From the NCBI RefSeq assembly GCF_014656095.1, contig NZ_BNBT01000010.1:1-64000 (forward strand): 64,000 nt of DNA. Reading direction: 5' to 3'. A model generated the notes under the pieces. That model was given only the letters and a program-made list of their open reading frames with translations. It had not been told where the DNA came from and searched no databases. The DNA is from Streptomyces longispororuber. GTDB lineage: Bacteria; Actinomycetota; Actinomycetes; Streptomycetales; Streptomycetaceae. This document shows positions 31,500-54,040 of this stretch, piece after piece (position 1 is the first letter of the stretch; the number at the start of each line of letters is the position of its first letter). The position numbers were made by a program, and so were the translations under genes.

Positions 31500-32312
31500 G
31501 TGACCAGATGGCATCTCGCGGGCGGCCGTACGCCGTCGTCGTCCACGGCAGCACGGAACGCGGCATGGACCGCCGTCGGCAGCAGACGGCCGACGGCGGA
31601 CGTGCGGCTGTACTGCTTCCCCTTCGTCGGGGCGCCGGCGGAGATGTACCTGCCGCTGGAGGCGCACCTGCCGGAGACCGTCGAGCTGTGTGCGCTGGAG
31701 CTGCCCGGTCACGGCGCCCGGAGCCGGGAACCGCTCACGCGTGACGTGACCGCGCTCGGCCGCACCGTGGCCGACGTCGTGTCCCGCGACGCGGCGGGAC
31801 GGCCGTTCGCCTTCTTCGGGCACTGTGCCGGCGCCCTGCTGGCCTACGAGACGGCGTGCGCGCTGTCGGCGGCGCACCTGCCCGGCCCCGTGCTCCTCGC
31901 CGTGTCGGCGCTGGTCCCGCCGCACCGCTACGCGCCCCACATGGCGGCCACCGTGTGCCGCCCGACCGGGGTCAACATGGCCCTGGTCGCCGAGATGATC
32001 AGGGACGCCCGGCGGTGCGGCGTGGCCATGGCTGCCATCTCCAAGGCCGAGGCCGTCGCCTACAGCACGCACACCCCGGCGTACCCGCGCCCCCTCACCT
32101 GCCCGGTGACCGTCATGGGCGGAAGCGACGACTCCGTCTTCCCGCCCGACCGGCTCGACGGCTGGGCGGCACACACCACCGCCGGGCTCAAGGCGTTCCG
32201 GCTCTACCCCGGGCGCCACCTGTACCTCCTGGACCACTGGCGACAACTCGCCGACGACCTCGCGGAGGACCTCGACGCCCTGCCCCACGACGCCCGCCCC
32301 GTCCAGTTCTAG
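31500..32312 (+). CDS. Type II thioesterase-like hydrolase with Cys nucleophile
   Basis: 270 residues, alpha/beta-hydrolase of the external PKS/NRPS thioesterase group: YCFPFVGAPAEMY, then the nucleophile elbow FFGHCAGALLAYE, an acid region MGGSDDSVFP and the His in GRHLYLLDHW. The elbow reads G-H-C-A-G, so the nucleophile is Cys109 rather than Ser. It begins 44 bases after the PKS stop, so it belongs to the PKS operon and most likely releases or edits the chain on the ACP. GTG at 31500 has AAGGAG ten bases upstream. A decayed copy of this gene lies at 47422-47600. Confidence 0.85.
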   Translation: MTRWHLAGGRTPSSSTAARNAAWTAVGSRRPTADVRLYCFPFVGAPAEMYLPLEAHLPETVELCALELPGHGARSREPLTRDVTALGRTVADVVSRDAAGRPFAFFGHCAGALLAYETACALSAAHLPGPVLLAVSALVPPHRYAPHMAATVCRPTGVNMALVAEMIRDARRCGVAMAAISKAEAVAYSTHTPAYPRPLTCPVTVMGGSDDSVFPPDRLDGWAAHTTAGLKAFRLYPGRHLYLLDHWRQLADDLAEDLDALPHDARPVQF

Positions 32313-34248: not shown

Positions 34249-35124
34249 TCAGGGCTTGCGTGCCACCCAGCACGCCATGACGAACGCGCCGCTGCGGGCC
34301 GCGAGGCACAGAGCGGTGCCGGCGCGCTCCATGAAGTCGAGCACGGGGGTCTTGTCCTGCTGCGGGACGGCCGCCATGACCTCCTCCATCTCACGCCAGT
34401 TGGGCTCCAGGTCGCCCTCGTCGCCCAGGTCGTGGACGTCCTCCACCACCAGGCCCGCCGCCGCGAGGTTCCGCCGCAGGTCCTGCGGGGTGCGCAGGGC
34501 GGGCAGCGCGAGGCCCTGGCACACCGGCTCCACCAGGCGCGCCTGCTGCCCGGGCGTGAGGCCGGCGGCCTGGAACCAGTCGCTGCCCAGGTAGACGCCG
34601 CCAGGACGCAGCACGCGAGCCACCTCGGCGTGCACCCGGGCGGCGTCCGGTGTGTGGCAGATGGCCTGGATGCTGTAGACGGCGTCGAAGGACGCGTCGC
34701 CGAACGGCAGGTGCATGGCGTCGCCCGAGCGGAAGTCGGTGAGGTGGGACATGCCCTGAGCCGCGGCGTGGGCCCTGGCGAACTCCAGTCTCTCCCGCAC
34801 CAGTTCCAGGCCCGTCACATGGGCCCCGCTGTGCCCGGCGATGGTGACGGCGGGTCCGCCGACCCCGCTGCCCACGTCCAGCACGGCCATGCCCGGGCGG
34901 AAGCCGCCGCGGTCCGCGATGGCCCGCTCGGCCGCGGCCATGGCCTCCGCGCGGCTCTCCCCACCGCGGAAGGGCGGGAAGTGGTGGGACTCGCCCCACA
35001 CGGCGCGGTAGAGCTCCGTGGCGAAGCCGTAGTAGTCGCGCACCAGCGAGGTGTAACACCGTCCGCGCTCGCCGGGATCCCGGGCCAGAGCCTCGTACGC
35101 CTGGACATCCGTGGCAGGTTGCAT
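34249..35124 (-). CDS. Sterol C24-methyltransferase-like SAM methyltransferase
   Basis: 291 residues. The N-terminal segment DYYGFATELYRAVWGESHHF corresponds to the sterol-methyltransferase signature (tyrosine-rich, then WG-x-S-x-HF) that Erg6/SMT proteins carry before the SAM site. The SAM-binding motif is VLDVGSGVGGPA, followed by GDAMHLPFGDASFDAVYSIQ. SMTs add a methyl group to C24 of delta-24 sterols. GAGGAG lies six bases before the ATG at 35124. It is the last gene of the sterol operon, after a 143-base gap. Shorter than yeast Erg6 (about 380). A tocopherol- or triterpene-type methyltransferase is the main alternative. Confidence 0.8.
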   Translation of the reverse strand: MQPATDVQAYEALARDPGERGRCYTSLVRDYYGFATELYRAVWGESHHFPPFRGGESRAEAMAAAERAIADRGGFRPGMAVLDVGSGVGGPAVTIAGHSGAHVTGLELVRERLEFARAHAAAQGMSHLTDFRSGDAMHLPFGDASFDAVYSIQAICHTPDAARVHAEVARVLRPGGVYLGSDWFQAAGLTPGQQARLVEPVCQGLALPALRTPQDLRRNLAAAGLVVEDVHDLGDEGDLEPNWREMEEVMAAVPQQDKTPVLDFMERAGTALCLAARSGAFVMACWVARKP

Positions 35125-35267
35125 GAGTCGCTCCTCAGCGAAGGACGCCCCGACGTCGCGGAGCGGAGATCGTTGGCGGACCGCGCGCGGCGGCACGGGT
35201 GGGGCGGAGGGGGAACGCGCGACGGATCCGGGCCGTGGTCGTCCGGCCGCAGCCGGGGGCAGGGTGG

Positions 35268-36632
35268 TCACGCCGTGCGGAAGCGGGGTCCCTGGCACAT
35301 CCGGCCGTAGAAGTTGAACCAGCGTGTGGCTTCGCGATGGCCCGCGAAGGGGTAGTCGGCACCGAGCTGGCGCGCCACGGCGAGGCCCGACAGGAAGGCG
35401 TGCTCCTGGCTGTTGACGGTGGTGTGGGCTCCGCAGTACCAGGTGCCGTGGCGGCCTTGGAGCGTGGGCAGGAGGGCGTGCAGCAGGACGGTGTGCCGGA
35501 TGTCGTGGACGACGTGCTGGAACTCGTAGCGGCCGACGACGTGCTGGGGTGCCGGAGGACGCTGGGCGTTGTAGGTGACCAGACGGGGGGAGGCCGGTCC
35601 GTCGCCCCAGGGCTGCTGGTTGTGCATGACGTAGGTGATCTCGTAGTTGTCGGGGGCGCTGCCGTAGTGGCGGACGTAGGTGCTCCTGGTCTCGCGTACG
35701 CGCAGCGCGTCGTCGGGCAGGAGGGAGTCGTCGGTGTGTGCCACGGCCGTGCCGTGCAGTCCGGCGTCGTAGCGCACGGCGCCGAGCAGGCGGCGCTCGC
35801 GGCGGGTGGGACGGGCGAGGAGGGCGAGCGCGTGGTTGGCGTTGCAGGCCAGGACGACGTGGTCGAAGCGCTCGCGCCCGCCGTGGGCGTCCACGAGGAC
35901 CACACCGCCGCCGTCGCGGATCACTCGCCGCACCGCGTGGTCGAGGTGGATGCGGTGGGCGAAGTCCCGGGTGAGCCGGGCGTAGATCGCGCGGGTGCCG
36001 CCCTGCCAGGTCACCATGGGTGAGCTGTGCTCGATGTCGAAGAAGTCCAGGTAGCGGACGAACATCGAGGCGGGCATGTCGAAGACGCCGGACGTCAGGA
36101 CGAAGTTCACGAACAGCGGCTTGAGCGCCTGGTAGCGGAACGCCTCGGAGACGCCCCACCAGTTCAGGGCCTGTCGCATGGAGACGTAGGTGAAGGGGTT
36201 GAGCAGCGCCGCGGTGAGCGAGGGCTGCTTGCTGAGGACGTTGAAACGGCCGACGGTGCGCAGCAGCCGGCGGAAGGCGGTGATGTCCGGCTGGAGCCGG
36301 CGGCGCAGCGCGCTGTCGGTGTCGTGGGCGTAGACCTCGTCGCCGTAGTGCACGGCGTAGCTGAAGCGGGTGGGGACGGTGTCGATGCCCAGCGTCCGCA
36401 GCAGGGCGACGTAGTTCTGGTAGACGGACGGGATGAACGCGGTCACCGCCACGTCCGCCGGTGTCGTGCCGCCGTCCTTCCGGGGGAAGTCCGCGGTCCG
36501 AGCGTTGCCGCCGACGGCCGGGCCCCGCTCGTACACCTCGATGTCGTAGCGCTGTGGGTGGCGGCTGAGGGCCCATGCCGCGCCCAGGCCCGCCACTCCG
36601 GCGCCCACGATCGCGACGCGCGTGCGGGTCAT
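35268..36632 (-). CDS. FAD-dependent amine-oxidase-like oxidoreductase of the sterol operon
   Basis: 454 residues. VAIVGAGVAGLGAAWALSRH is the FAD-binding unit, followed by IEVYERGPAVGGNARTADF as in amine oxidase / phytoene-desaturase-like flavoproteins; a second FAD contact is near the C-terminus (GTWYCGAHTTVNSQEHAFLSG). Closest in layout to the bacterial proteins often found with cyclopropane fatty-acid genes. In this operon a hydride-transfer step on the sterol is likely, for example C5 desaturation or C24 reduction, the two steps with no other candidate here; this is inference. The ATG overlaps the stop of the EBP-like gene by four bases, showing coupling. Confidence 0.75.
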   Translation of the reverse strand: MTRTRVAIVGAGVAGLGAAWALSRHPQRYDIEVYERGPAVGGNARTADFPRKDGGTTPADVAVTAFIPSVYQNYVALLRTLGIDTVPTRFSYAVHYGDEVYAHDTDSALRRRLQPDITAFRRLLRTVGRFNVLSKQPSLTAALLNPFTYVSMRQALNWWGVSEAFRYQALKPLFVNFVLTSGVFDMPASMFVRYLDFFDIEHSSPMVTWQGGTRAIYARLTRDFAHRIHLDHAVRRVIRDGGGVVLVDAHGGRERFDHVVLACNANHALALLARPTRRERRLLGAVRYDAGLHGTAVAHTDDSLLPDDALRVRETRSTYVRHYGSAPDNYEITYVMHNQQPWGDGPASPRLVTYNAQRPPAPQHVVGRYEFQHVVHDIRHTVLLHALLPTLQGRHGTWYCGAHTTVNSQEHAFLSGLAVARQLGADYPFAGHREATRWFNFYGRMCQGPRFRTA

Positions 36633-37201
36633 CGCGGGTCTTCCTTCCCGGCCGGTACGGCTTCCGCACCGGCGGCGAGGCGGCTCAGGGTGCGGAAGGC
36701 CGTCGCCGCCAGCCACAGGTTGCCCAGCAGCCAGGGCAGGTTGGGCGCGTAGAAGATGAAGTAGCCCCAGGCGTCGCGCACCGGCATCTCCGGATATCCG
36801 GCCGCGTGCGCGTGCCACAGGTAGAGGACGACGGAATACGTGAGGTAGGAGCCGACGGCCAGTTGCAGCGGATGCCGCCAGGGGCGCCGCCGCAGCACGG
36901 CGTAGGCCAGCGCGGCGTTGAGGATCTGGGTGACGAAGACGTTGAGCGACTCCAGCGCGTAGGGGAAGGCGATGTGCCCCTGCCCGTAGTAGGAGCGGTC
37001 CCCCGCCCCGTAGATGCGGAACAGGTCGGCGAAGACGTGGTCCTGTCGCCGGATGTCTTGATGGTGGACGACGAAGTAGAGCTCCAGCGACAACGCGAGT
37101 ACCCAGGAGAAGGCGAGAAAGGCCAGGGTCACCAGATCCCCGCGGCCCGGTCGGGCGCGCGAGGCCCCGGGGACGGGCAGCCGTGCGGCCAGCGGTGGCA
37201 A
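36629..37201 (-). CDS. EBP-type sterol delta8-delta7 isomerase (EXPERA domain)
   Basis: 190 residues with four to five membrane segments. The order SWVLALSLELYFVVHH, IYGAGDRSYYGQGH, ALESLNVFVTQ, RRPWRHPLQLAVGS, YLWHAH and FYAPNLPWLL parallels human emopamil-binding protein (GDSRYILGD, METITA, RQHPLRFILQLVVS, an E/H pair, then an N-x-LW motif). The Glu of ALESL aligns with the catalytic Glu of EBP. EBP shifts the delta8 double bond to delta7. TTG at 37201 has AAGGAG seven bases upstream. It is translationally coupled to the FAD enzyme. EXPERA proteins are mostly eukaryotic, so a bacterial copy inside a sterol operon is remarkable. Confidence 0.85.
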   Translation of the reverse strand: MPPLAARLPVPGASRARPGRGDLVTLAFLAFSWVLALSLELYFVVHHQDIRRQDHVFADLFRIYGAGDRSYYGQGHIAFPYALESLNVFVTQILNAALAYAVLRRRPWRHPLQLAVGSYLTYSVVLYLWHAHAAGYPEMPVRDAWGYFIFYAPNLPWLLGNLWLAATAFRTLSRLAAGAEAVPAGKEDPR

Positions 37202-37294
37202 GGCAAGTCTCCTTACGGGTCTCAGGGCCGGTCGCGGCCCTTGGACCGGCGACGCGTGCCTCGGGCGGGCAGGCGGGAGGACGGACGGGAAGGC

Positions 37295-37319
37295 GGGAGG
37301 GGTGGGGTGGGGAGAGGGG
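37295..37319 (+). other. G-quadruplex-like G-run in the OSC-EBP gap
   Basis: Four runs of three or more G separated by single bases (GGGAGGGGTGGGGTGGGG, then AGAGGGG) lie on the plus strand, which is the template strand for the sterol operon. The 160-base gap between the cyclase and isomerase genes (37202-37361) holds nothing else. Confidence 0.5.
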
Positions 37320-37361
37320 ACGCGCTCGCCGCGCCCGGCGACGGACCGTCGCGTGCGGGTC

Positions 37362-39425
37362 CTACGGGGCCGCACTGCCGCACGCCCCGTCGTCCTCGGT
37401 GACGGACTGTGTCCCGGCCAGGCGTACGCCCAGTGCCCACAGGGGGAAGTACGCGGCGTAGAGGCGGTAGTCGAGCATGGCCGAGCCGAAGAAGACCCCC
37501 GCGGGCGCCTCCTGCCGCCAGCTTCCGTCCGCCCGCTGGTGGCGGCACAGCCACGCCAGGCCTCGCTCGACGGCGGGGGCGGCAGCCGGGCGGAGGCCGA
37601 GCAGGGCCAGCAGCGCCCAGGCGGTCTGTACGGGCCGGCTGGTCTCGTCGGGCACGTACCGGCGCTCGACGCAGCCGCGGTGGTGCTCGCCCCAGCCGCC
37701 GTCCTCGCGCTGCACACGCTCCAGCCACCGGGCCGCGCGCTCGAGTCCTGGGTGGCCGGGCGCGAGCCCGGCGGCCAGCAGGCCCCGCACGGCGAACAGG
37801 GTGCCGTAGATCCGGTGGACACCCCAGGCGGCGGGCCAGGACCCGTCCGGTGCCTGGCGGCTCAGCAGGAAGCGGCGCGCGCGGCGCGCGGCGCGGTCCC
37901 CGGCACGGCGGTCGGGCGTCGGCACGTGGTCGCGCAGCGCCGCAAGCGCGACCAGGGCGGAGCCGGTGCACTCGATGTAGGAGTCCTCGACCACGCAGTT
38001 GGTGAACATCTCCGAGGGGTTGAGGCGTTCGAGGAGCCGGGGCCCGCGGCGGGGCTCGTAGGTGCCGAAGCCTCCGTCGCGGTTCTGCCGCTCCAGCAGG
38101 AAGCGGTGCGCGCGGACCAGCCGTTCCGGACCCGGGAGGGAGGTCGGCGCCTCGGTGCCCCGGGTGGCGTCGGCGGTGTGCAGCAGCGAGGCGGCGGCCT
38201 CGGCCGTGCAGTCGCTCACCGGCCAGCGGTGGGTGCCTTCGGAGAAGCACCACCCCCCGTCGGCGGAGGCGCGGGCGGTGACCCATGGGTCCGGGACGTC
38301 CCCCCTGAGCTGCGCGCCGATCAGGAAGGAAGCGGCCCGCTCAGCGGCTGCCGCCCGCCCCGCGACAGCCGTGGGCCCGGACGCGAACAGGGCCTCCAGC
38401 GCGAAGGCCGTGTCCCAGGAGTGCGACCGCGCGCCCGCGTAGCGGATCCCGCGCTCCTCGTCCTGCCAGCACCAGCTCTCCAGGCCCGCCAGCGCGCGGT
38501 CGACCTCCTCGGCTCCGGCGCCCGCGGCGTGCAGCACCAGTACGTTCAGCAGCGAGCTGACGGGGGAGATGCCCGCTTCCGCGGTGACCTGCTGCTCGTG
38601 GCGCACGCGGCGCAGGCAACGGTCCAGGGCCCGCGCCCGCGGCCCGGCCATCGGGGCGCGTTCGTACCACGTCAGGCAGGTGAACACGGCCCGCAGCACA
38701 GGCGCGGGCGGGTAGAGGGCGTCGGTGCCCAGCCGCGCCCGGTCGGCGGGGCGCGGCCTGCGGCCGGGGAACAGCTCGCCTTCCAGAGCCTGCGCGACGC
38801 GCGGGCGTACGGTGAACCGGGCCCCGTAGAGGTAGGCCATGGCCTGGTAGATCGTGCGGGTGTGGCAGTACAGGCGGTCGGGGTGGAACGGGACCCGGTG
38901 CGGCAGCAAGAAGATCTCCGGCGGCAGCGGGTTGACCGCCCGCCAGTCGTACAGCCCCAGCAGGGCCAGCCAGAACTTGCCCCATGTGGGCACGGACAGC
39001 GCCCCGCCCGGCTGGGCGGCCAGCCACGCGGCGGAGCCCGCGCACAGCGGATGCCCGGGGGGCAGGCCGAGCAGCCGCAGCGCCACGTGGGCGAGTGTGG
39101 TGCAGTACGCCGAGGGGCCGGAGGCCGGGTGCAGGCCCCAGCCGCCCTCGCCGGTCACGGTCGTCTCGTAGTGGCGGACGATCGCCGCGTGCCGCTCCTT
39201 CGGGACGGGGCGGTTCACCAGTTCCCGCACGATGACGTACTGGGAGAGGATCATGGTGTTCCACACCATCTCGCCCTCCCAGCTCCCGTCGTCGCGTTGC
39301 AGGGACAGCAGGTGCCGGACCGCCAGGTCGTGTGCCGCCCGGATGTCAGCGGTGAGCGTCGGCGGGGACGCGCCCGTCGGCGAGGGCGATGGGTGAGGGG
39401 CGCGGCCGGAGCCGGTCACGGTCAA
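37362..39425 (-). CDS. Oxidosqualene cyclase (lanosterol/cycloartenol synthase type)
   Basis: 687 residues. The catalytic motif is D405-C-T-A-E (in VSDCTAEAAAS), the hallmark of 2,3-oxidosqualene cyclases; squalene-hopene cyclases have DxDDTA instead. QW repeats of the triterpene cyclase fold are plain: QRDDGSWEG, QNRDGGFGTYE, QAPDGSWPA, QREDGGWGE, QRADGSWRQ. SHSWDTAFALEAL and YIECTGSALVAL are also cyclase landmarks. The enzyme would fold oxidosqualene into a tetracyclic sterol. TTG at 39425 has GGAGG seven bases upstream and lies 80 bases inside the Rieske gene, so the two are tightly coupled. Which protosterol it makes cannot be read from the sequence. Confidence 0.92.
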   Translation of the reverse strand: MTVTGSGRAPHPSPSPTGASPPTLTADIRAAHDLAVRHLLSLQRDDGSWEGEMVWNTMILSQYVIVRELVNRPVPKERHAAIVRHYETTVTGEGGWGLHPASGPSAYCTTLAHVALRLLGLPPGHPLCAGSAAWLAAQPGGALSVPTWGKFWLALLGLYDWRAVNPLPPEIFLLPHRVPFHPDRLYCHTRTIYQAMAYLYGARFTVRPRVAQALEGELFPGRRPRPADRARLGTDALYPPAPVLRAVFTCLTWYERAPMAGPRARALDRCLRRVRHEQQVTAEAGISPVSSLLNVLVLHAAGAGAEEVDRALAGLESWCWQDEERGIRYAGARSHSWDTAFALEALFASGPTAVAGRAAAAERAASFLIGAQLRGDVPDPWVTARASADGGWCFSEGTHRWPVSDCTAEAAASLLHTADATRGTEAPTSLPGPERLVRAHRFLLERQNRDGGFGTYEPRRGPRLLERLNPSEMFTNCVVEDSYIECTGSALVALAALRDHVPTPDRRAGDRAARRARRFLLSRQAPDGSWPAAWGVHRIYGTLFAVRGLLAAGLAPGHPGLERAARWLERVQREDGGWGEHHRGCVERRYVPDETSRPVQTAWALLALLGLRPAAAPAVERGLAWLCRHQRADGSWRQEAPAGVFFGSAMLDYRLYAAYFPLWALGVRLAGTQSVTEDDGACGSAAP

Positions 39426-40515
39426 GGAATTCCTCCCACTTGCGGATGGTGAGGTCCTGGAAGAGGCCCACGGCCGGGTTGAGTTCGACGACGGGCGCGG
39501 CGTGGTGGATCTCGTAGCCCGTCTGTTCCGCCTCGACCGCTACGCCGTCCTGCCTGAGCAGGGGCTTGACGGCGAGTGCGCCGGCCAGCCGCATCAGGGG
39601 GCCCATGAGCACGCGCGGCACCTGCCGCCGGGTGCCGGGGATCTTCAGGGAGTCGAAGTAGAACAGGAAGAACGCACGGGTGGTCCGCCGGTCCATGGGC
39701 AGCACGAAGCACCAGTGCTTGATCGAACCGCCGGTGTCCGAGCGCTGGTAGGGGTATTGGAAGGCCAGCTCGATGCCGGTGGTGTCCACGCGGCTGCGGT
39801 CCACGAAGCGGGAGGTGAACCGCCCGCCGCCGACGAAGGTGTCGTACGCCAGCTCCACGCTGTCCCCACGCGTCTCGTGCCGGGTGAGCCGGGCGTCCCA
39901 GAAGGGCCGGTACTTGCGGTGCAGATAGGCGTGGGTGAAGTCGCTGACGTTGTCGATGATCATCGAGTGATGGGCGTGCCAGGTGTAGGAGGCGTCCAGG
40001 CGTGCCCAGGGCCGGGCGCCCGTCACCTCGGGGATGTGCGGAATGCGGCGCTGTCCGGCCAGCTCGGGGTCGCCCGGGAAGATCCAGATCAGGCCGTGCC
40101 GGCTGACGACCGGATAACTGGGGATGCGCACTTCGGGCTGGGCCCTGCCGAACAGGTCGTGCGCGTAGTGGACGACGTGGCCCTGCCCGTCGTAGGTCCA
40201 TCCGTGGTACGTGCACGTCAGGCGGCAGCCGTCGACCTCGCCGCCGGAGAGTTTGAGCTGCCGGTGGGCGCAGCGGTCCTCCAGGGCGTGCAAGGTGCCG
40301 TCCGTCCCCCGGTAGACCACGATGTGGTGGCCCCAGAAGCGCGTGGCCAAGGTGGTGCCGGGGCGCAGCGCGGCGTCGTACTCCACCGGATACCAGTAGT
40401 CGGGGTCGAGGCCGGCGGCGCGGACCTTGGCCCGCTTGCTGCGGGCCCGGGCGAAGGACGGGGGCGCGTCCGGACCCGGGAGGCGCGCCGCGCGGCGGTG
40501 TGGAACGGTGCTCAC
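39346..40515 (-). CDS. Rieske non-haem iron oxygenase, sterol C4-demethylase (SdmA)-like
   Basis: 389 residues. The Rieske 2Fe-2S cluster ligands are C82-x-H84 and C101-x2-H104 (RCAHRQL ... TCTYHGW). A catalytic domain follows with the mononuclear-iron region (SDFTHAYLHRKYRPF). In methanotrophs the Rieske oxygenase SdmA removes sterol C4 methyl groups together with the SDR SdmB; here a Rieske gene and a steroid-dehydrogenase-like SDR sit in one operon. Cholesterol-7-desaturase-type chemistry is an alternative. GTG at 40515 overlaps the P450 stop by four bases. No reductase partner is encoded nearby. Confidence 0.82.
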   Translation of the reverse strand: MSTVPHRRAARLPGPDAPPSFARARSKRAKVRAAGLDPDYWYPVEYDAALRPGTTLATRFWGHHIVVYRGTDGTLHALEDRCAHRQLKLSGGEVDGCRLTCTYHGWTYDGQGHVVHYAHDLFGRAQPEVRIPSYPVVSRHGLIWIFPGDPELAGQRRIPHIPEVTGARPWARLDASYTWHAHHSMIIDNVSDFTHAYLHRKYRPFWDARLTRHETRGDSVELAYDTFVGGGRFTSRFVDRSRVDTTGIELAFQYPYQRSDTGGSIKHWCFVLPMDRRTTRAFFLFYFDSLKIPGTRRQVPRVLMGPLMRLAGALAVKPLLRQDGVAVEAEQTGYEIHHAAPVVELNPAVGLFQDLTIRKWEEFLDRDRLRPRPSPIALADGRVPADAHR

Positions 40516-41945
40516 GGCTGCTCCGGTACGGGGACGGATCGTTTGCGGTAGCGGACGCGCGGCGAGACGGGGCCCGGGATGAAGGTGGAGTAGTCGGGTC
40601 GGAAGTCCGCGTGTCCCGCGTCGAAGGCCACCTCGCGCAGCAGCACGCTCCAGACGGCCTTGACCTGGAGGTAGGCGAAGGCGGAGCCGACGCAGCGGTG
40701 TCGGCCACCGCCGAAGCCGATCAGAGCGTGGGGTTGACGGTGTTCCTCGCGCGGCGCCTCGTAGCGGGCGGGGTCGAAGCGGTCCGGGTCGCGGAAGACC
40801 TCCGGCATACGGTGGGCCACGGCGGGCGAGACCATGACCAGGGTGCCCGCGGGGACGGTGTGCCCGATGAGGTCCAGTTCCCGCAGTGCCGTGCGCATCA
40901 GCACCAGCAGCGGCGGATGGAGCCGCTCCGCTTCCCGGACGCAGCGCTCCAGCAACTCCATGCGGTGCAGCGGTTCGGCACCGAGCCGGGGGGTGCCGTC
41001 GGTCACCGTGTGCTGCTCGGCGAGCAGCGCGTCGACGTACTGGGGATGCTGGAGCAGCAGGACGCCGGTCCAGGTGGCGAGCACGGCGCTGGTGTGCTGA
41101 CCGGCGAAGATCATGCCGATGAGGATGCCGGTCACCAGGTCGTCGTCGAGCGGGGAACCGTCCGGGGCCCGGGCGGCCAGCAGCGTGGCCAGCATGTCGC
41201 TCCCGTCGACGTCCTCCCCGTGCGCGGCCGGCTCCCTCTCCAACCCGTCGGGGGCGCCCGCCGACGCCGCGCGGCGTGCCGCGATGACGTCGCCGATCGC
41301 CCGGGCGATGGCGGCGCGGGCACGGTCCCGGCGCCGGAAGGAAGGCAGCGGCAGCGCGGGGCTGAGGATGCCGGCCAGGCGGATACCGCTCTCCAGGTCC
41401 CGGTAGAGCCCGGGCAGGTGCGGCCCCATGCCGTGCTGGAACTCGTCGCCGATCAGACAGCGCGTGGCGATGGCGACCGTCATCCGGTTCAACTCGCTCA
41501 GCAGGTCGACCTCGCCCTGCGGTGCCCAGTGCGCGAGACGGGTGCGGACCTCCTCCTCGGCGATCCGGGCGTACCCGTCCAGCCGGCGCGGGCTCAGGGC
41601 CGGCAGGAGGTGGCTGATCTGGGCACTCATCTCCTGCGGTGCCGCGTCGTAGGCCACGCCGGGACCGAAGACCGGGGTGATGAAGCGGTAGGCCTCCTTC
41701 GGGCTGAGCACTGTCTCCTCGGCGCCGAAGACAGCCGCGTGCGCCTCGGGCCCGCAGGCGAACACCACCCGACGGCCCAGCAGCGGGAAGCCGAAGACGT
41801 TGCCCAGCCGTTCCCGCCCGGCGCGCAGCAGGGCGACCGGGTCCCGCCGGAACGACCAGCAGGGCCCGAACCACGGCAGCCCGCCGCCGGACAGGTGCGG
41901 GACCGCGGTGACCTGGGGTCGCGCCGCCGCATCGTCGAGAGCCAT
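40512..41945 (-). CDS. cyp51: CYP51, sterol 14-alpha-demethylase
   Basis: 477 residues. The I-helix carries A281-G-Q-H-T-S286 (FAGQHTSAV), the CYP51 fingerprint, and the B' region reads FITPVFGPGVAYDAAP, the substrate-recognition stretch of CYP51. K-helix E-x-x-R is in REAERLHPPLLVLMR; haem ligand C418 is in FGGGRHRCVGSAFAYLQVK. The enzyme removes the 14-methyl group of lanosterol-type sterols in three oxidations. AAGGAGGAG precedes the ATG at 41945, which overlaps the stop of the SDR gene by one base. No ferredoxin gene lies beside it, unlike in mycobacteria. Confidence 0.93.
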   Translation of the reverse strand: MALDDAAARPQVTAVPHLSGGGLPWFGPCWSFRRDPVALLRAGRERLGNVFGFPLLGRRVVFACGPEAHAAVFGAEETVLSPKEAYRFITPVFGPGVAYDAAPQEMSAQISHLLPALSPRRLDGYARIAEEEVRTRLAHWAPQGEVDLLSELNRMTVAIATRCLIGDEFQHGMGPHLPGLYRDLESGIRLAGILSPALPLPSFRRRDRARAAIARAIGDVIAARRAASAGAPDGLEREPAAHGEDVDGSDMLATLLAARAPDGSPLDDDLVTGILIGMIFAGQHTSAVLATWTGVLLLQHPQYVDALLAEQHTVTDGTPRLGAEPLHRMELLERCVREAERLHPPLLVLMRTALRELDLIGHTVPAGTLVMVSPAVAHRMPEVFRDPDRFDPARYEAPREEHRQPHALIGFGGGRHRCVGSAFAYLQVKAVWSVLLREVAFDAGHADFRPDYSTFIPGPVSPRVRYRKRSVPVPEQP

Positions 41946-43015
41946 CACGCGCTCCTCCTTCCGCTGCCGGTCCGTACGGCGGGCGCTCTCCGGGGCGCCG
42001 CCCTGGCCCCTCGCACGCGCGCGCTCCGCTCCACCAGGCCGCGGTCGACGAAGCAGCGGTACGCCTGCTCGACGGCGCTCGCGAGGGACGTGGGCCGGTA
42101 GCCCAGGACGTCCCGGCTCAGCGAGCAGTCGGCCCGGCGCTGCGAGCGCAGGAAGCGGACGGCCGCCGGGGTGAAGCGGGCCTCCCGGTCCGGAGCGAGG
42201 AGTGCCCTGGGCGCCTCGGCGAGCCGGGCCAGCACGGACATGGCCCGCGCCGGAACCCGAAGCGGAGGCTTGGGACGGCCGGTGACCTCCGCGTACAGCT
42301 CCAGCATCCGGTCCACCGTGCAGAACTCCGTCGACAACAAGTACTTGGCACCGGGGCGGCCGTGCCGCCAGGCCAGCAGATGCCCGTCCACGAGGTCGTG
42401 CACGGAGACGAACTCGAAGCCGCCGGGCAGGTAGGCGGTCAGCCTGCCGTGGGCGTGGTCGAGCAGCAGCCGTCCCATGCGCGACGGCACGTAGTCGTGC
42501 GGACCGATGATCGCCGTGGACACCGCGACGACCACCTCCAGCCCCTGGGCCGCCGCCTTGCAGCACTCGTGCTCCACCAGCACCTTGCTCCGGGTGTAGG
42601 GCGTGTGGCTCTCGAAGGGGTAGTGCAGGTCCCGCTCCGTGCTCGCCCGCCCCGGCCGGCCGCCCGTCGCGCTGAACGAGCCGGTGACGACGACCCGTCC
42701 CACCCCGCAACGCCGCGCGCTGTCCAGGACATTGCGCGTCCCGAGCACGTTGACGGCGTACGTGTCACGGTGTCCCCGGGCGGAGGTCGACACGCGGGCC
42801 GCGCAGTGGAAGACGCTCTCGCACCCCTTGACCGCGCGCTCCACGGCCGCCGCGTCCCGTACGTCCCCCGCGGCGCGCTCGACGGGCAGGCCCGCCAGTG
42901 CCTGCGAGGCGGACTCCCAGGCGGGCACCAGGGCGCGTACGTCGTGGCCGTCCGCCAGCAGCCGGCGTACGAGATTGGCGCCCAGATGGCCGCCGGCGCC
43001 TGTCACCAGGATCAT
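41945..43015 (-). CDS. 3-beta-hydroxysteroid dehydrogenase/C4-decarboxylase-like SDR (SdmB/NSDHL-like)
   Basis: 356 residues. Extended SDR: MILVTGAGGHLGANLVRRLL at the N-terminus, FHCAARVST and the catalytic Y-x3-K in HTPYTRSKVLVE. The length and C-terminal extension fit the 3-beta-hydroxysteroid dehydrogenase family, which includes NSDHL/ERG26 and bacterial SdmB for oxidative decarboxylation at sterol C4. It is the first gene of the sterol operon and is followed directly by CYP51. ATG at 43015 is preceded by GGAGGGG; a frame extension back to 43126 lacks a ribosome site and is AT-rich promoter-like DNA. Confidence 0.85.
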   Translation of the reverse strand: MILVTGAGGHLGANLVRRLLADGHDVRALVPAWESASQALAGLPVERAAGDVRDAAAVERAVKGCESVFHCAARVSTSARGHRDTYAVNVLGTRNVLDSARRCGVGRVVVTGSFSATGGRPGRASTERDLHYPFESHTPYTRSKVLVEHECCKAAAQGLEVVVAVSTAIIGPHDYVPSRMGRLLLDHAHGRLTAYLPGGFEFVSVHDLVDGHLLAWRHGRPGAKYLLSTEFCTVDRMLELYAEVTGRPKPPLRVPARAMSVLARLAEAPRALLAPDREARFTPAAVRFLRSQRRADCSLSRDVLGYRPTSLASAVEQAYRCFVDRGLVERSARVRGARAAPRRAPAVRTGSGRRSA

Positions 43016-43154
43016 GCCCCTCCCCCCGTACCCCATCGGCGGGCATGGAGCCGCCCTAGCCCATTGGGGTAACTTCACGTCATTATGTAGGAACTCTTGG
43101 TAATTGGGCGTCGTCTCCTGATTCATGCACTCGAACGTGTGACGGAGGTCGAAG
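43016..43154. promoter_or_regulatory. Divergent promoter region of the sterol genes
   Basis: 139 bases between the SDR (minus) and the epoxidase (plus) genes. The part from 43060 to 43125 is clearly richer in A and T than its surroundings (ACTTCACGTCATTATGTAGG, then CTCTTGGTAATTGGG), as expected for promoters. I cannot assign -35/-10 boxes with confidence. Confidence 0.5.
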
Positions 43155-44453
43155 GTGGAAGTCGCGGAAGCCGTGGTGGCGGGCGCGGGACCGGCCGGAT
43201 GCGCGGCCGCGCTCGCGCTGGCCCGGCGTGGTACGCACGTGACACTGGTGGAGCCCCGCCCCGAGCGCGGCGGCCGCTTCGCGGGCGAGTGGCTGCACCC
43301 GGCCGGTGTCGCGGCCCTGGCCCGGTTGGGCGTCAGCCTGCCGTCCGGCGCCTTCGTCGAGAAGCGCGGCTTCCTGGTCCATCCCGGAGCGGGGCACACC
43401 CCGATCGAGCTGCCCTACAGCCAGGGCGGCGCGGTGACCGCGCCGCACCACGTCTTCGCCGGTGCCCTGCTGGCGCAGGCGCGCCGCACCGGTTCCGTGA
43501 CGGTGGTGCTCGGCCCGCGCCTGACGGACGCGACAGCCCGCGGCGCCTGCCGGGTCGCCGGTGAACTGCTCCATGTGCCCCTCGTCGTGGGGGCGGACGG
43601 CCGCAACTCCGCGGTACGCAGGGCTTTGTACCGCAACGCGGCCCCGCCCGTGACGCTCTCGCACACCGCCGGACTGGTCCTGCGCGACGTCCCCCTGCCC
43701 ACGGAGGGGTACGGGCACATTTTCCTCGGCGGCCCCGGGCCGGCGCTCGTCTACCGCATCGCTCCCGCTCTGGTCCGCGTCTGCCTCGACGTCCCCCTCA
43801 GCCGCCCCGGGGCCGGGCAGGTGCGCGCGTACCTGGAGGGCCGCTTCACCGGGCACCTGCCCGCCGAGCTGGCCGAGGCGTTCCGCCGCGGCGTCCGCGC
43901 CGGCGACGTCCAGTGGTCCGCGGGCCAGTTCCGCCGCCGCGCCTGCTTCGGCCGCGGGCGGGTGGCGCTGGTCGGTGACGCAGCCGGATGCGGACACCCA
44001 CTGGCCGCCCAGGGGATGACGAACGCCGTCCTGGACGCGGAGGGCCTGGCCGCGGCCACCGACCTGGAGGGCTACCGCAAGGCGCGCACGCAGGCGTCCC
44101 GCGTTCCCGAGCGCGTGGCCGCGGCCGTCCACCGCGTGCTCACGGGACACGACCGGGCCAGCCTCGCGCTGCGCCACTCCCTGTTCGCCCTGTGGCGCGG
44201 CGACGCGCACGAACGGGCGCGCTCGATGCGGCTGCTGGCCCTGGAGGAGACCCGGCGCGGTGCGCTGTGCGGCTCGGTCGCCCACATCGCCGCAGGCGCC
44301 CTGGCGTACGCCGTGCGCGACGAGCGCAGTGACCTGCTCGACTCCGTCGCCACCGTCACGGGCCTCACGAACTGGCTGCTGTGGCTGGCGGGTTCGCACG
44401 TGGGCGTCCCGCCCCGGCGACTCGTGCGCAAGGTCGCCGTCATGGGGTGCTGA
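43155..44453 (+). CDS. Squalene-epoxidase-like FAD monooxygenase
   Basis: 432 residues. FAD-binding AVVAGAGPAGCAAALALARRG, then the GEWLHPAGVAALARLGV stretch that parallels squalene epoxidase (GELLQPGGV), and the second FAD motif GDAAGCGHPLAAQGMTNAVLD (D275), which carries the H-P-L-x3-GMT pattern of squalene epoxidases. It would make 2,3-oxidosqualene for the cyclase encoded opposite. Shorter than eukaryotic enzymes, which have an N-terminal membrane anchor. GTG at 43155 follows GGAGG by six bases. Related geranylgeranyl-reductase-like flavoproteins are the main alternative; the context decides for squalene epoxidase. Confidence 0.82.
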   Translation: MEVAEAVVAGAGPAGCAAALALARRGTHVTLVEPRPERGGRFAGEWLHPAGVAALARLGVSLPSGAFVEKRGFLVHPGAGHTPIELPYSQGGAVTAPHHVFAGALLAQARRTGSVTVVLGPRLTDATARGACRVAGELLHVPLVVGADGRNSAVRRALYRNAAPPVTLSHTAGLVLRDVPLPTEGYGHIFLGGPGPALVYRIAPALVRVCLDVPLSRPGAGQVRAYLEGRFTGHLPAELAEAFRRGVRAGDVQWSAGQFRRRACFGRGRVALVGDAAGCGHPLAAQGMTNAVLDAEGLAAATDLEGYRKARTQASRVPERVAAAVHRVLTGHDRASLALRHSLFALWRGDAHERARSMRLLALEETRRGALCGSVAHIAAGALAYAVRDERSDLLDSVATVTGLTNWLLWLAGSHVGVPPRRLVRKVAVMGC

Positions 44454-44500
44454 CCCCGCGGCGGACCGGGCCCGCCGCCCGGCTGCCGGGTGGAGGCGGA

Positions 44501-45562
44501 TCAGTACACGTACGGGAACATCCGGAACCGGGCCCGCTCGCAGTACTGGCTCCACACCGCTCCGTACTTGGCGCGGCAGCGCCGGTCGTCGCGGTGTGCG
44601 CGATGGACGAACAGGACGAGGAGGAACGCCGGGACCGTGTACGGCAGTGGCGAGTGCGCGCCGCACAGCAGCGTCCAGCTAACGTAGACGAGCAGCTCGC
44701 CGGTGTAGTTGAGCTTGCGGCCGATGCCCCAGAAGCCGGAGACCAGGAGCCTGCCCCCGACGGTTTCGGCCGGACGGCCCCAGATGGTCGCCCTCGCGTC
44801 CTGCTTGAAGCGGTGCTTCTGGTCGTTGGCGCCCCGGAAGAGCCAGAAGCCCAGGACGAACAGGAGACAGCACAGGGCCCCGAGCCAGAGCGGCAGCGGC
44901 TGGTGGACGTCCACCAGCACCAGGCCCGGGAGTCCGTAGAAGAACGGCACCAGCACGTAGTCGCCCCACACCAGCATCCAGCCGAAGCGCTCACTGGTGA
45001 GGTCCCAGGTGTGCAGCATGCCGCCCTCGAACTGGAAGTAGTTGGCGAGGTAGACGAAGAAGAAGACCTGGTAGAGCGCCATGCGCGGGGTGAGCGAGCC
45101 GTGCTCCACGTACTGCACGCAGGCCGCGGAGAAGTTGATCAGCAGCAGCCCGATGAGGGAGGGCCGGTAACTGAACAGCTTCAGGTCGACCCCACCCCAC
45201 CGGGGATTCAGTTCGACACCGAAGAAGTAGTCCTTCACCGCCGCCCACGGCCCGGGCCGCGGGCGCACCGGCTGATGGTGCCTGCCCCGCACCCAGAGGA
45301 TCCCGGCCAGGGCGAACGCGAAGACGTTCGCCGCGACGAACAGGTCCCGCAGATGCCGTACCGGATAGGCGAGGGCCTGGGGAGCCCGCCACCACAGCAG
45401 CACGCAGACACCGACCGTGAGGACGAAGAGCGCCAACCCGTTGAGCCGGTACACGGGGACCGGCCCTGAACCGGCTGCCGCTCCGCGCACCACCCGGCCG
45501 GGGAGCCAGCGGGAGCCGGCGAACAGTACACCGACGAAGCACAGCAGGATCACACCCGCCAC
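44501..45562 (-). CDS. Sterol C14-reductase-like protein (ERG24/TM7SF2 family)
   Basis: 353 residues with about eight membrane segments. The family signatures are present: FFGVELNPRWGGVDLKLF, WDLTSERFGWMLVWGD, FRGANDQKHRFK, and LLVSGFWGIGRKLNYTGE (~272-289), ending RCRAKYGAVWSQYCERA. These match ERG24/LBR/TM7SF2 C14 reductases, which reduce the delta14 bond left by CYP51. Its neighbour upstream is a paralogue closer to DHCR7. GTG at 45562 is preceded by GGAGG at nine bases; the frame is open to 45601. C24(28) reductase (ERG4) is the alternative activity. Confidence 0.87.
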   Translation of the reverse strand: MAGVILLCFVGVLFAGSRWLPGRVVRGAAAGSGPVPVYRLNGLALFVLTVGVCVLLWWRAPQALAYPVRHLRDLFVAANVFAFALAGILWVRGRHHQPVRPRPGPWAAVKDYFFGVELNPRWGGVDLKLFSYRPSLIGLLLINFSAACVQYVEHGSLTPRMALYQVFFFVYLANYFQFEGGMLHTWDLTSERFGWMLVWGDYVLVPFFYGLPGLVLVDVHQPLPLWLGALCCLLFVLGFWLFRGANDQKHRFKQDARATIWGRPAETVGGRLLVSGFWGIGRKLNYTGELLVYVSWTLLCGAHSPLPYTVPAFLLVLFVHRAHRDDRRCRAKYGAVWSQYCERARFRMFPYVY

Positions 45563-45623
45563 TTTCCAGCACCTCCGAACATGTCGGCACAGAGGGGGCA
45601 CGGACGACGGGCGGCGCCGCCCG

Positions 45624-46976
45624 TCAGTACAGGCGGGGGACGATCTTCCAGGGCACCCGCCGGCAGTACTCCAGGTAGGCCTCGCCGTACTTGTCCCGAC
45701 AGCGCCGCTCGTCGCGTCCGCAGCGGTCGAGCAACAGGACGGCCAGGAAGAGCAGATAGAAGTACGGCAGCACCCGCCCGGCTCCGACGGGCGCCACCCA
45801 GCACGCGGCGAGCACGAACTCGGGCAGGTAGTGGAAGTGCCGCGCCTGCCCCCACCAGCCGGAGTACAGCAGCACAGAGGAGTGCGTGCTGCCGTCGGCC
45901 GTCGTGTACGAGGCGTGCAGCACCCGCGCAGGACGGCCCCAGACGAGGGTGTCGCCGTGCGTGTCGCGTACCCGCTGGCGCTGGGCGTCCGCCGCGTAGT
46001 TGACGGCCAGCGCGGCCAGCCCCACGGCCAGGAGCAGCACGGTCTCCCACACCGGAAGAGAGCGGGGACGGACGACCAGATACAGCGTGCTCAGGGTGTA
46101 GACGCCGGGCAGCCACACCGTGACACCCCAGCACAGGTAGTAGCCGAACCGGTCGTGCATGACGTCGAGCGTCCCGAAGTAGCCGGCCTCCCAGACGAAG
46201 AACTTCACGATGTAGGCGAGCTGGAGGCCCACCGCGACGATCATCGAGGAGGACACCGCGCCGCTGCGCTCGTGCTGGGCCGCCGCGAACGACACCAGCA
46301 GCAGGCTCCACCCCATCATGCCCACACGGCAGTTGAACAACTGCTTCAGGTCGACACCACCGATGACGGGGTGCAGCTCAGTGCCCCAGAAGAAGTCCAG
46401 GACCGGGCGTCCGGTGCTGCCGTGGTCGGGGCCCGACGGGCGGCGCAGCCCCTTCACGTACAGCCCGGCGCACAGCAGCAGGCACAGCACGCACGACGTG
46501 GTCAGCAGCTCCCCGAACCGGTCGTACAGCACCCCGGGCGAGAACCACCCCAGTCCGGCCGAGGCGAGGAGGTGGACGAGGTGCGTCACGAGCAGGGCCA
46601 GGGGCCCGTTCGCACGGTACGAGGGCCGCACGCCCGCCGGGGTGACCGGCCCCCGCACCGTGCGCCCCGGCAGGAGCCGCAGCAGCAGGGCTTCGGCGAC
46701 GACGAACCCGCAGAGCATCAGCGCGGCGGAAGCGGACGGCCTCGGCAGCGCTGCCGCCAACCGGGGCCAGTCGGACGGGGTCAGCACAGGAGCGAGGGCC
46801 CCGTCGAACGCCATGACCAGCGTCACCAGGAGCAACACCAGAGGCGGAGTGACGATCACCAGGAGGGAGGGCAGGAGCACACACCGCAGGAACTCGGAGA
46901 GGCGGCCGAGCTGAGCACCCCTCCAGGCCGGGACGGCCGGTACGGCGGTACGCGCGTCGGCTCGGTCATCGGTCAC
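45624..46976 (-). CDS. Sterol C7-reductase-like protein (DHCR7 family)
   Basis: 450 residues, about nine membrane segments. Long matching stretches with animal/plant 7-dehydrocholesterol reductase: LDFFWGTELHPVIGGVDLK, DVMHDRFGYYLCWG, LVWGRPARVLHASYTTADG, LLYSGWWGQARHFHYLPE (~367-384), and RCRDKYGEAYLEYCRRVPWK at the end. The conserved RHFNYxGD is changed to RHFHYLPE, so the NADPH site may differ. DHCR7 removes the delta7 bond. It lies 61 bases upstream of the C14-reductase-like gene in the same direction. The GTG start at 46976 has no strong ribosome site. Confidence 0.87.
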   Translation of the reverse strand: MTDDRADARTAVPAVPAWRGAQLGRLSEFLRCVLLPSLLVIVTPPLVLLLVTLVMAFDGALAPVLTPSDWPRLAAALPRPSASAALMLCGFVVAEALLLRLLPGRTVRGPVTPAGVRPSYRANGPLALLVTHLVHLLASAGLGWFSPGVLYDRFGELLTTSCVLCLLLCAGLYVKGLRRPSGPDHGSTGRPVLDFFWGTELHPVIGGVDLKQLFNCRVGMMGWSLLLVSFAAAQHERSGAVSSSMIVAVGLQLAYIVKFFVWEAGYFGTLDVMHDRFGYYLCWGVTVWLPGVYTLSTLYLVVRPRSLPVWETVLLLAVGLAALAVNYAADAQRQRVRDTHGDTLVWGRPARVLHASYTTADGSTHSSVLLYSGWWGQARHFHYLPEFVLAACWVAPVGAGRVLPYFYLLFLAVLLLDRCGRDERRCRDKYGEAYLEYCRRVPWKIVPRLY

Positions 46977-48637: not shown

Positions 48638-49618
48638 TCAAGTGCTGTGTCGGCCGCGCGACAGCGGCACGTCCGCATGGTGACGTGCCGCGGCTCGGCC
48701 GGATTCCGCGTGTTGCGCGGTCTGCCTGCGGGCGCGCAGTTGTATGCGGTCGATGTGTCGCAGCAGCATGTCGCGAGCCTTTTGTCCTTCACAGCGCAGA
48801 TCCGTGCGCTGCCGTACGCGCAGGGTGCGCAGGAGCGGTTGCAGGATGTCGTCGTGGTGGATGCGCAGGTCGTAGATGCCGGCCTCTGCGACCTCCTCGG
48901 CCTGGCGGGCGAAGCCGTGCATCGCGTGTCCCGGCATGCGGAAGGAGGTGACGACGGTGGTGAGGGCGCACATGGCCTGGTCGGGCGCGAGGTCGAAGGC
49001 CGCGGAGAGCATGTTGCGGTAGAAGAGCATGTGCATGTTCTCGTCGTGTGCGATGCGGCGCATGAGCTGTTCGCAGATGGGGTCGCCGCTGAGGCGGCCG
49101 GTGTTGCGGTGGGAGATACGGGTGGCCAGTTCCTGGATGGTGGTGTAGGCCAGGGCCGTGAGGGGGGAGCTTCCGTAGCCAAGGATGTAGCCGGTGGACA
49201 TGAGGTGGCGCCGGGCGTCTTCCAGGGCGACGGGGTCCACGGCGCGGGTGGCGTGGAGGTAGTCGCGCAGGGCCGTGCTGTGGCGGGCTTCCTCGGTGGT
49301 CCACTGGTGCACCCACTGTTCCCAGACGTCGTCACGGCCCAGTCGGACGGCCAGGACACGGTGGTAGCTGGGGAGGTTGTCCTCGGTGAGGAGGTTGCAC
49401 ACCAGGGACGTCGTCACGGCTTGGGGCAGGTGGCTGTCCTCGGGTCGCCAGGGCCGTCCGTGAAGGGGGCCCTCGAAGTTCCGTCCCTGGTCCCAGGGGA
49501 TGTACTGGTGGGGGTACCAAGGGATGGCGTCGCGCAGGTGTCGCTCGTACTCGCGCGCGGCATGGGGGGCCAGTTCGCGCAGTACGGTGACGTCGTCCAG
49601 TCTCGCCATGAGACTCAC
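48638..49618 (-). CDS. Acyl-ACP desaturase (soluble di-iron type)
   Basis: 326 residues. The two di-iron E-x2-H motifs are EEARHS and DENMH, as in plant stearoyl-ACP desaturase (EENRHG, DEKRH) and mycobacterial DesA. The enzyme introduces a double bond into acyl chains on ACP. The end is hydrophilic and Arg/His-rich. It overlaps the malonyltransferase gene by four bases (GTGA), and an ACP is encoded in the same operon, so the substrate is likely the chain on that ACP. Needs ferredoxin and a reductase, not encoded nearby. Confidence 0.88.
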   Translation of the reverse strand: MSLMARLDDVTVLRELAPHAAREYERHLRDAIPWYPHQYIPWDQGRNFEGPLHGRPWRPEDSHLPQAVTTSLVCNLLTEDNLPSYHRVLAVRLGRDDVWEQWVHQWTTEEARHSTALRDYLHATRAVDPVALEDARRHLMSTGYILGYGSSPLTALAYTTIQELATRISHRNTGRLSGDPICEQLMRRIAHDENMHMLFYRNMLSAAFDLAPDQAMCALTTVVTSFRMPGHAMHGFARQAEEVAEAGIYDLRIHHDDILQPLLRTLRVRQRTDLRCEGQKARDMLLRHIDRIQLRARRQTAQHAESGRAAARHHADVPLSRGRHST

Positions 49619-51977: not shown

Positions 51978-52008
51978 GAGGCCCTCCGCGGAGGTGTGGG
52001 GGGTGGGG

Positions 52009-52266
52009 TCAGGTGGAGGTGCTGGCGGCCTGATCGATGTAGCGGACCGTCTGTCGGACGGTGTGGAGCTCGTCGGCGTCCTCGTCGGGGATCTTGATGC
52101 CCCAGCGTTCCTCGATGGCGGCAACGACCTCCAGCCTGGCCAGGGAGTCGATGCCCAGGTCGTCCTTGAGGTCACTGTCCGGCTGCACTTCCTCGGGGAT
52201 CAGGTCTTCGATGGTCTTGTCCAACAGCACGACCAGATCCTGGAAAAGGGACTGTTCGGAGGCCAT
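52009..52266 (-). CDS. Acyl carrier protein
   Basis: 85 residues, acidic, with the phosphopantetheine Ser in DLGIDSLARLEVV. The order of helices and the EERWGIKIPDEDADELHTV region are typical of fatty-acid-type ACPs. GAGGAG lies six bases before the ATG at 52266. It heads the minus-strand operon ACP-KS-AT-desaturase, opposite the ole genes. Confidence 0.92.
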   Translation of the reverse strand: MASEQSLFQDLVVLLDKTIEDLIPEEVQPDSDLKDDLGIDSLARLEVVAAIEERWGIKIPDEDADELHTVRQTVRYIDQAASTST

Positions 52267-54027: not shown

Positions 54028-54040
54028 TGAGGGAATGGTG

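Follow-up and report, generated by a model that had tools for sequence, protein, structure and literature searches.

The first 64,000 nucleotides of contig C10 in the Streptomyces longispororuber assembly (this whole stretch is called the window below) carry a cluster of ten genes at positions 34249-46976 that is predicted to let the organism synthesise a sterol of its own, starting from squalene, a reading that we consider highly likely on sequence evidence. The window opens its contig, and the assembly comprises 9.08 Mb with an estimated completeness of 100% and contamination of 0.66%. The ten genes, and with them the near-complete sterol pathway that an earlier note had read from the bare letters, are confirmed by the listing of open reading frames (ORFs), Pfam and NCBIfam profiles, PDB matches and motifs, together with squalene-synthase-family genes elsewhere in the genome. 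As judged from their sequences, the enzyme classes encoded cover squalene epoxidation, cyclisation, C14 demethylation, C4 oxidation and decarboxylation, and the handling of double bonds, and the pathway is very probably a de novo one. In the route we propose, a squalene epoxidase would convert squalene to 2,3-oxidosqualene, which an oxidosqualene cyclase (OSC) would cyclise, likely to lanosterol given the valine at its V453 position; CYP51 would then demethylate C14, the reductase RED2 would likely reduce the resulting C14 double bond, SdmA- and SdmB-type proteins would remove one or both C4 methyl groups, and an EBP-like protein would probably shift the double bond from delta8 to delta7. Lineage-specific finishing would fall to three further proteins: a methyltransferase resembling sterol methyltransferases (SMTs), probably acting on the side chain, an FAD amine-oxidase-superfamily protein (FADao), possibly a desaturase such as one for C5, and the reductase RED1, probably acting on the delta7 double bond.

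The two entry enzymes are readily recognised. Squalene epoxidase (432 residues, 43155-44453, plus strand) matches PF08491 with 76.2 bits (cut-off 20.1), and its top PDB match is the solved squalene monooxygenase 6C6N (E=4.2e-23). The OSC (687 residues, 37362-39425, minus strand) scores 456 bits against TIGR01787 (cut-off 322.7) and matches the solved lanosterol synthase 1W6K at E=8.5e-107. Its acid motif VSDCTAE, read by script, begins at residue 403 and places a valine two residues before the catalytic aspartate, the 453 position, where all nine aligned actinomycete OSCs have valine; a valine at this site is taken to mark lanosterol and an isoleucine cycloartenol formation according to PMC10152446. 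The calls of a squalene epoxidase and a DCTAE cyclase are thus borne out. Squalene is likely supplied by the host itself, since the genome search that had been suggested for its synthesis genes found three squalene-synthase-family genes outside the window: contig C110 has two of them, in the vicinity of a hopene cyclase, and contig C80 has the third. In a phylogenetic tree 17 actinomycete OSCs form a single clade (support 100/100), with two references, presumed to be eukaryotic, standing apart. By this sequence comparison the OSC is bacterial in descent, which says nothing of the other enzymes, and transfer from eukaryotes was rejected for the OSC only. A triterpene route of the gromomycin type was rejected as well, being squalene-independent according to PMC13010261.

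The ring-modifying enzymes follow the same pattern of family matches and kept motifs. CYP51 (40512-41945, minus strand) has solved CYP51s as its top PDB matches (best E=2.1e-92), and a script reads the motifs AGQHTS and, around the heme cysteine, FGGGRHRCVG, so that both its nearest relatives, sterol 14-demethylases, and its signature place it where it had been placed before. The SdmA-type Rieske C4-methylsterol oxygenase (39346-40515, minus strand) matches PF00355 with 75.1 bits, contains the C-x-H...C-x-x-H motif and shares a D-x-x-H-A-x-L-H stretch with all 15 aligned rows, while its presumed partner, the SdmB-type 3-beta-hydroxysteroid-dehydrogenase-like short-chain dehydrogenase/reductase (SDR; C4 decarboxylating, 41945-43015, minus strand), shows GAGGHLG and YTRSK by script for the GxxGxxG and YxxxK motifs. 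Both reductases belong to the ERG4/ERG24 family (PF01222, cut-off 27): RED2 (44501-45601, minus strand) with 240.8 bits, 97% identical to a protein of Streptomyces sp. CC224B, and RED1 (45624-46976, minus strand) with 247.8 bits, sharing 98% identity with a protein of Streptomyces longispororuber. Among the 120 RED2 matches listed, the visible sterol-specific names are, with one exception, Delta14-sterol reductase. The EBP/EXPERA-family protein (about 36629-37201, minus strand, with an uncertain TTG start) reaches 33.6 bits against PF05241 (cut-off 25.7) and matches the solved delta8-delta7 isomerase 6OHT at E=2.1e-07, one of two PDB chains found at E<=1. Across nine actinomycete sequences it keeps the active-site columns E80, E122, N193 and W196 of human EBP. 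Its fusion to RED2 in P0251 of Streptomyces sp. NPDC046215 and in L011:6707-8431 of S. eurocidicus argues for a sterol role, and from its sequence it is a probable delta8-delta7 isomerase.

Seven of the genes run along the minus strand in the order SDR, CYP51, Rieske, OSC, EBP, FADao and methyltransferase (5' to 3'). Four of their junctions overlap (SDR/CYP51 by 1 base, CYP51/Rieske by 4, Rieske/OSC by 80 and EBP/FADao by 4) and two are gaps, of 160 bases between OSC and EBP and of 143 bases between FADao and methyltransferase; gene starts were chosen by us, and the junction lengths derive from those coordinates. Because the junctions overlap or the gaps are short, the run from SDR to methyltransferase is probably co-transcribed. 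RED1 and RED2 form a second minus-strand pair with 22 bases between them, and the epoxidase, on the plus strand, diverges from the SDR across 139 bp of intergenic sequence (43016-43154, from the coordinates). The cluster is therefore not one operon: the operon coupling claimed earlier would apply to the seven-gene run and not to the set as a whole.

The same combination recurs in a small number of other actinomycetes. A scan of genome contigs with an OSC alignment returned 189 relatives, and among the top 80, which were retained, eight are Streptomyces or Nonomuraea isolates (loci L006 to L012 and L020). Searches at E<=1e-100 found an OSC in 7/392 genomes of the genus (the host itself, G035, G350 and the assemblies of L008-L011) and in 1/394 of the class, the host's own genome being counted in both. 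The window, the eight isolates and G035 and G350, which came from the genus search only, make up eleven OSC-bearing genomes; L060, a metagenome-assembled genome (MAG) of an Acidimicrobiaceae member of the Actinomycetota, was left out of the counts, having OSC and epoxidase matches only and an OSC that lies among those of other MAGs. By tblastn matches, eight of the eleven contain a seven-gene core of epoxidase, OSC, CYP51, Rieske, SDR, RED2 and EBP, namely the window, L006, L008 (with a short SDR frame), L009, L010, L011, L012 and G035. Within these eight core clusters FADao is found in six, an orthologue of the methyltransferase in five and one of RED1 in two (the window and G035). On this sequence evidence the cluster is rare and patchy, with a constant core and variable finishing genes. 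Twenty picked ORFs from seven loci of relatives (six clusters) illustrate this variability: MMPL-family genes occur in L008, L010, L011, L012 and L127, FAD_binding_4 genes in L008, L011 and L127, and L008 has a Rieske gene resembling KshA. The FAD_binding_4 genes might encode DHCR24, but the search with the L011 copy gave 38 solved chains, of which none was more specific than a general FAD-linked oxidase. In the L006 locus a squalene-synthase-family gene occurs along with one for a polyprenyl synthase. The locus of Nonomuraea sp. PA05 (L012:272-18065) likewise includes a squalene-synthase-family gene, together with genes for a GGR-like protein, a sulfotransferase and an MMPL-family protein, a set from which the product there is possibly a sulfated, exported sterol and the GGR-like protein possibly a C24 reductase of the Bsr type.

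A number of observations weigh against the reading of the ten genes as a complete sterol pathway, or narrow it. The OSC falls below the narrower curated cut-off of TIGR03463 (749 of 851 bits), and although NF052579 and NF052578 are the best families for the Rieske protein (372.6 bits) and the SDR (290.3 bits), both scores lie under the curated cut-off of 600, which leaves the earlier assignment to the SdmA/SdmB type probable. In three of the eleven OSC-bearing genomes the core is incomplete as far as the sequence examined goes: the L007 locus (genome G393), which opens at the end of a contig, has SDR, Rieske and OSC; S. griseocarneus (L020) combines OSC and SDR, its CYP51 and RED2 lying on a different contig; and G350 has the OSC and a 38% epoxidase match. 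No ERG4/ERG24-type match to RED1 was found in G393 or G350, and some core clusters are without FADao, some without the methyltransferase. In the EBP-like protein the histidine of the H76 column is absent, alanine occupying it in all nine actinomycete sequences, so that the delta8-delta7 isomerase called earlier retains the family, the 6OHT match and four of the five active-site columns. The predicted 4,14-demethylated product holds as far as genes for both demethylations are encoded, but the extent of C4 demethylation by SdmA and SdmB may, by analogy, be single or double. It is not predictable here because the outcome differs by organism: according to PMC10202945, the SdmAB pair takes off a single C4 methyl in Methylococcus and both in Calothrix, and in E. 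salina it removes none when SdmC is absent.

The assignment of RED2 meets difficulties as well. In the reductase tree RED2 falls in a clade (100/100) separate from that of RED1, and the solved C14 reductase 4QUV, as well as chain 9L5R, which is likewise named Delta(14)-sterol reductase, lie outside both the RED1 and the RED2 clade. The exception among the homologue names is P0330 of Minicystis rosea (54% identical to RED2), called a Delta(24(24(1)))-sterol reductase. Two MAG loci, L042 and L058, possess a second reductase that branches on the same side as 4QUV, adjoins an SMT gene and, judging by this placement, could be a C24(28) reductase; with RED2 itself outside the 4QUV clade, the roles of the two clades could be reversed. 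A C14 role for RED2 is nevertheless favoured because its gene is sited between the Sdm genes and CYP51 in MAG clusters, because L006, L011 and L012, for which the search gave no orthologue of the methyltransferase, also have it, and because M. rosea, which according to PMC12004948 makes cholesterol and thus needs C14 and not C24(28) reduction, has a RED2 homologue. RED2 is thus likely a C14-sterol reductase by function, and the earlier call of such an enzyme keeps its family and its homologue names while losing membership of the 4QUV clade.

The finishing enzymes are predicted less firmly. RED1 groups (100/100) with ten proteins from its homologue list whose visible sterol name is 7-dehydrocholesterol reductase, in a clade where some rows are nameless and in a tree that included no characterised DHCR7; by family and clade RED1 is accordingly a probable DHCR7-type reductase. 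An enzyme of this type requires a delta5,7-diene, a substrate that the cluster does not account for, as no cluster-linked ERG3-family C5 desaturase (PF04116) was found in 19 genomes, a further point against a complete pathway. The host has one PF04116 gene, but an ERG3-type desaturase acting in trans was rejected, the distribution of the family being unlinked to the OSC: it is present in 15/19 genomes, including eight of ten OSC-less Streptomyces controls, and missing in two of nine OSC-bearing ones (S. curacoi and Nonomuraea).

FADao (454 residues, 35268-36632, minus strand) matches PF01593, in agreement with its earlier description as an FAD oxidoreductase, and is a candidate sterol desaturase or reductase whose nearest solved chain is LkcE. 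Homologues with 50-75% identity occur in sterol clusters of MAGs and actinomycetes; among the 36 MAG-type loci L050-L085 seven have one (one of them partial), and in four of these (L061, L070, L076 and L083) it adjoins the SMT gene. The protein is encoded in 5/392 genus genomes, four of which have an OSC. The fifth, G241, tells against a strict sterol link: its homologue (53%) at L147:10350-11717 on contig C470 lies between a conjugation-coupling gene and transposases, and none of the other nine cluster genes was found in 21,920 bases around it. Since L006 and L012 have FADao without the methyltransferase, its substrate does not have to carry a methylated side chain. Our guess, that FADao is a C5 or a side-chain desaturase, draws on the delta5,7-diene needed by a DHCR7-type RED1, on the presence of FADao in both RED1-bearing core clusters (2/2), and on its presumed resemblance to flavin desaturases of lipid operons.

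The methyltransferase (291 residues, 34249-35124, minus strand) is an S-adenosylmethionine-dependent enzyme by Pfam (Methyltransf_11, 82.7 bits) and a candidate sterol side-chain methyltransferase. The C24-methyltransferase called earlier is upheld as to this class, and its orthologues are restricted to OSC-bearing genomes; what it lacks is the SMT hallmark. Sterol_MT_C (PF08498) was found neither in the protein (up to E 10) nor in the genome (E<=1), although it is present in 10 of 14 aligned methyltransferases (ten from MAGs, four from actinomycetes), the window's not among the ten, and the alignment shows a gap at this domain in the four actinomycete rows. In a tree of 41 rows, made up of 23 proteins from MAGs, six from actinomycetes and twelve paralogues (MitM and RebM among them), the six actinomycete proteins form a clade of their own (99/95) between the MAG SMTs and the paralogues, with both splits well supported; only the midpoint root, placed for drawing, joins them to the MAG SMTs, outgroups being few and long branches flagged. 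This position outside the definition of SMTs makes the methyltransferase the most novel part of the cluster.

It also lends weight to a rival reading, to which we give a chance not far below even, that the enzyme acts at a position or group other than C24, for instance by O-methylation, with a fold nearer to the MitM/RebM type. The missing domain and the tree position both suit it, and so does the kinship with solved proteins, which tells against a sterol methyltransferase: by sequence the nearest are MitM and RebM, and the AlphaFold model (pLDDT 91) finds AtmM, MitM, SpnF and RebM as nearest folds. Farnesyl and geranyl diphosphate C-methyltransferases come next among the fold matches, however, and the fold does not settle the acceptor. 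Against the rival, tblastn scores to the MAG SMTs (124-155 bits) exceed those to paralogues of Streptomyces genomes (74-113 bits), and the gene adjoins FADao as do the SMT genes of L061, L070, L076 and L083. Its orthologues (E<=1e-50) occur in 5/392 genomes of the genus, each of which is one of the seven that have an OSC (hypergeometric 2.8e-10, or 1.6e-8 with the host's genome excluded, both values inflated by shared descent), and S. griseocarneus (L020) has a partial homologue with 45% identity over 189 residues. This strict co-occurrence with the OSC is the strongest hint from the sequences at a sterol substrate. A fuller version of the sterol reading, in which cultured Streptomyces make C24-methylated, ring-demethylated sterols through a separate actinomycete SMT family that lost or never had Sterol_MT_C, with a flavin amine-oxidase-type sterol desaturase and a DHCR7-type reductase acting afterwards, is offered tentatively and is on balance unlikely.

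Three other explanations concern the cluster as a whole. The sterol might serve only as the scaffold of a specialised steroid natural product and not for membranes, which we regard as possible though well short of probable. The finishing genes vary by strain, with MMPL, FAD_binding_4, the sulfotransferase of L012 and the KshA-like gene of L008 among them, the OSC is patchily distributed (7/392), a type I polyketide synthase (PKS) lies next door, and a C7-ketone natural product from Streptomyces seoulensis is cited in the steroid discussion of PMC10152446. The ten genes, however, include no P450 beyond CYP51, no glycosyltransferase and no sulfotransferase; beyond the core they add only RED1, the methyltransferase and FADao, and any link between the PKS and the cluster is presumptive. 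That the OSC makes a non-sterol triterpene on which the other enzymes act is highly improbable: its product is not certain from sequence and it falls short of TIGR03463, but the DCTAE motif and the valine at the 453 position, the CYP51 and Sdm-type proteins encoded alongside it in the seven-gene run, and a core common to MAG sterol clusters all argue for a sterol. Least credible of all is the degradation or remodelling of sterols taken up from outside. The KshA-like gene of L008 and the habitats that Streptomyces share with sterol-bearing eukaryotes would fit such a role, yet an epoxidase and an OSC would be pointless for it, and relatives carry squalene-synthase-family genes within the locus itself.

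Further biosynthetic genes lie on both sides of the sterol cluster. The PKS, at 23770-31455 on the plus strand, has a single module (ketosynthase, acyltransferase, dehydratase, methyltransferase, enoylreductase, ketoreductase and carrier domains), is followed by a thioesterase at 31500-32312, and resembles iterative highly reducing enzymes. Upstream of RED1, positions 48638-52175 (minus strand) hold fatty acid desaturase, acyltransferase and ketosynthase genes, and an ORF 40% like this ketosynthase is found near the S. eurocidicus cluster (L011). An alpha/beta hydrolase, a ketoacyl-synthase-III, an AMP-ligase and a 3-beta-HSD-like SDR follow consecutively at 53020-57749 (plus strand), a make-up like that of OleBACD olefin or beta-lactone genes.

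Set against what is in print, the cluster is, on its gene content, genuine and uncommon, and it belongs to a known kind of bacterial sterol cluster, its product being a prediction. The earlier claim that a compact set in a Streptomyces-like genome would be new is weakened: actinobacteria are named as carriers of C-14 and C-4 demethylation genes (PMC10202945) and of such sterol genes again in PMC12004948, Streptomyces CYP51s are placed in a tree in PMC13277303, compact bacterial clusters are described (PMC10202945, PMC12004948), those of MAGs with working SMTs (PMC10070321), and the same core is present in L006, L008-L012 and G035. Among the open-licence papers listed by our searches we recognised no report of a sterol from such a Streptomyces cluster. 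Among cultured bacteria a close likeness, by description, is Calothrix sp. NIES-4105, where a single cluster of 21 kb covers oxidosqualene production and cyclisation, CYP51, C-8 isomerisation and SdmAB; it differs in being cyanobacterial and in that its SdmAB was shown to remove both C4 methyls (PMC10202945). The MAG-type loci L050-L085, similar to the clusters of PMC10070321, combine SDR, Rieske, RED2, CYP51, epoxidase and OSC in 27 of 36 cases (some of the other nine perhaps incomplete from the locus end), with RED2 52-59% identical where matched and some FADao homologues beside the SMT. They differ from the window in the Sterol_MT_C domain of most scanned methyltransferases, in giving no EBP match by tblastn, and in that RED1 finds no counterpart there other than the RED2-type gene, or the second reductase of L042 and L058. 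The sterol genes of the myxobacterium Sandaracinus amylolyticus also lie largely in one cluster (PMC12004948), and the myxobacterium M. rosea shares the RED2 homologue P0330, but in these two the side chain is reduced by the GGR-family Bsr and the product is cholesterol (PMC12004948). Six Methylococcaceae loci (L014, L017, L019, L021, L035 and L037) have an OSC 48-51% identical to that of the window, an epoxidase in the locus and, in four of the six, CYP51; they differ in having no RED2 or EBP match within the loci, and methanotrophs of this family use 8,14-Bsr instead, with an SdmAB that removes one methyl (PMC13277303).

A Streptomyces that can be grown and that holds a compact, near-complete pathway would allow a direct test of how bacteria build sterols. 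Its genes would bear on the evolution of C4 demethylation, C14 reduction and side-chain methylation in bacteria, and on how safely methylated steranes can be read as eukaryotic biomarkers. Should Streptomyces indeed make C24-methylated sterols, side-chain-alkylated sterols, which are held to be eukaryotic markers, would come from soil isolates.

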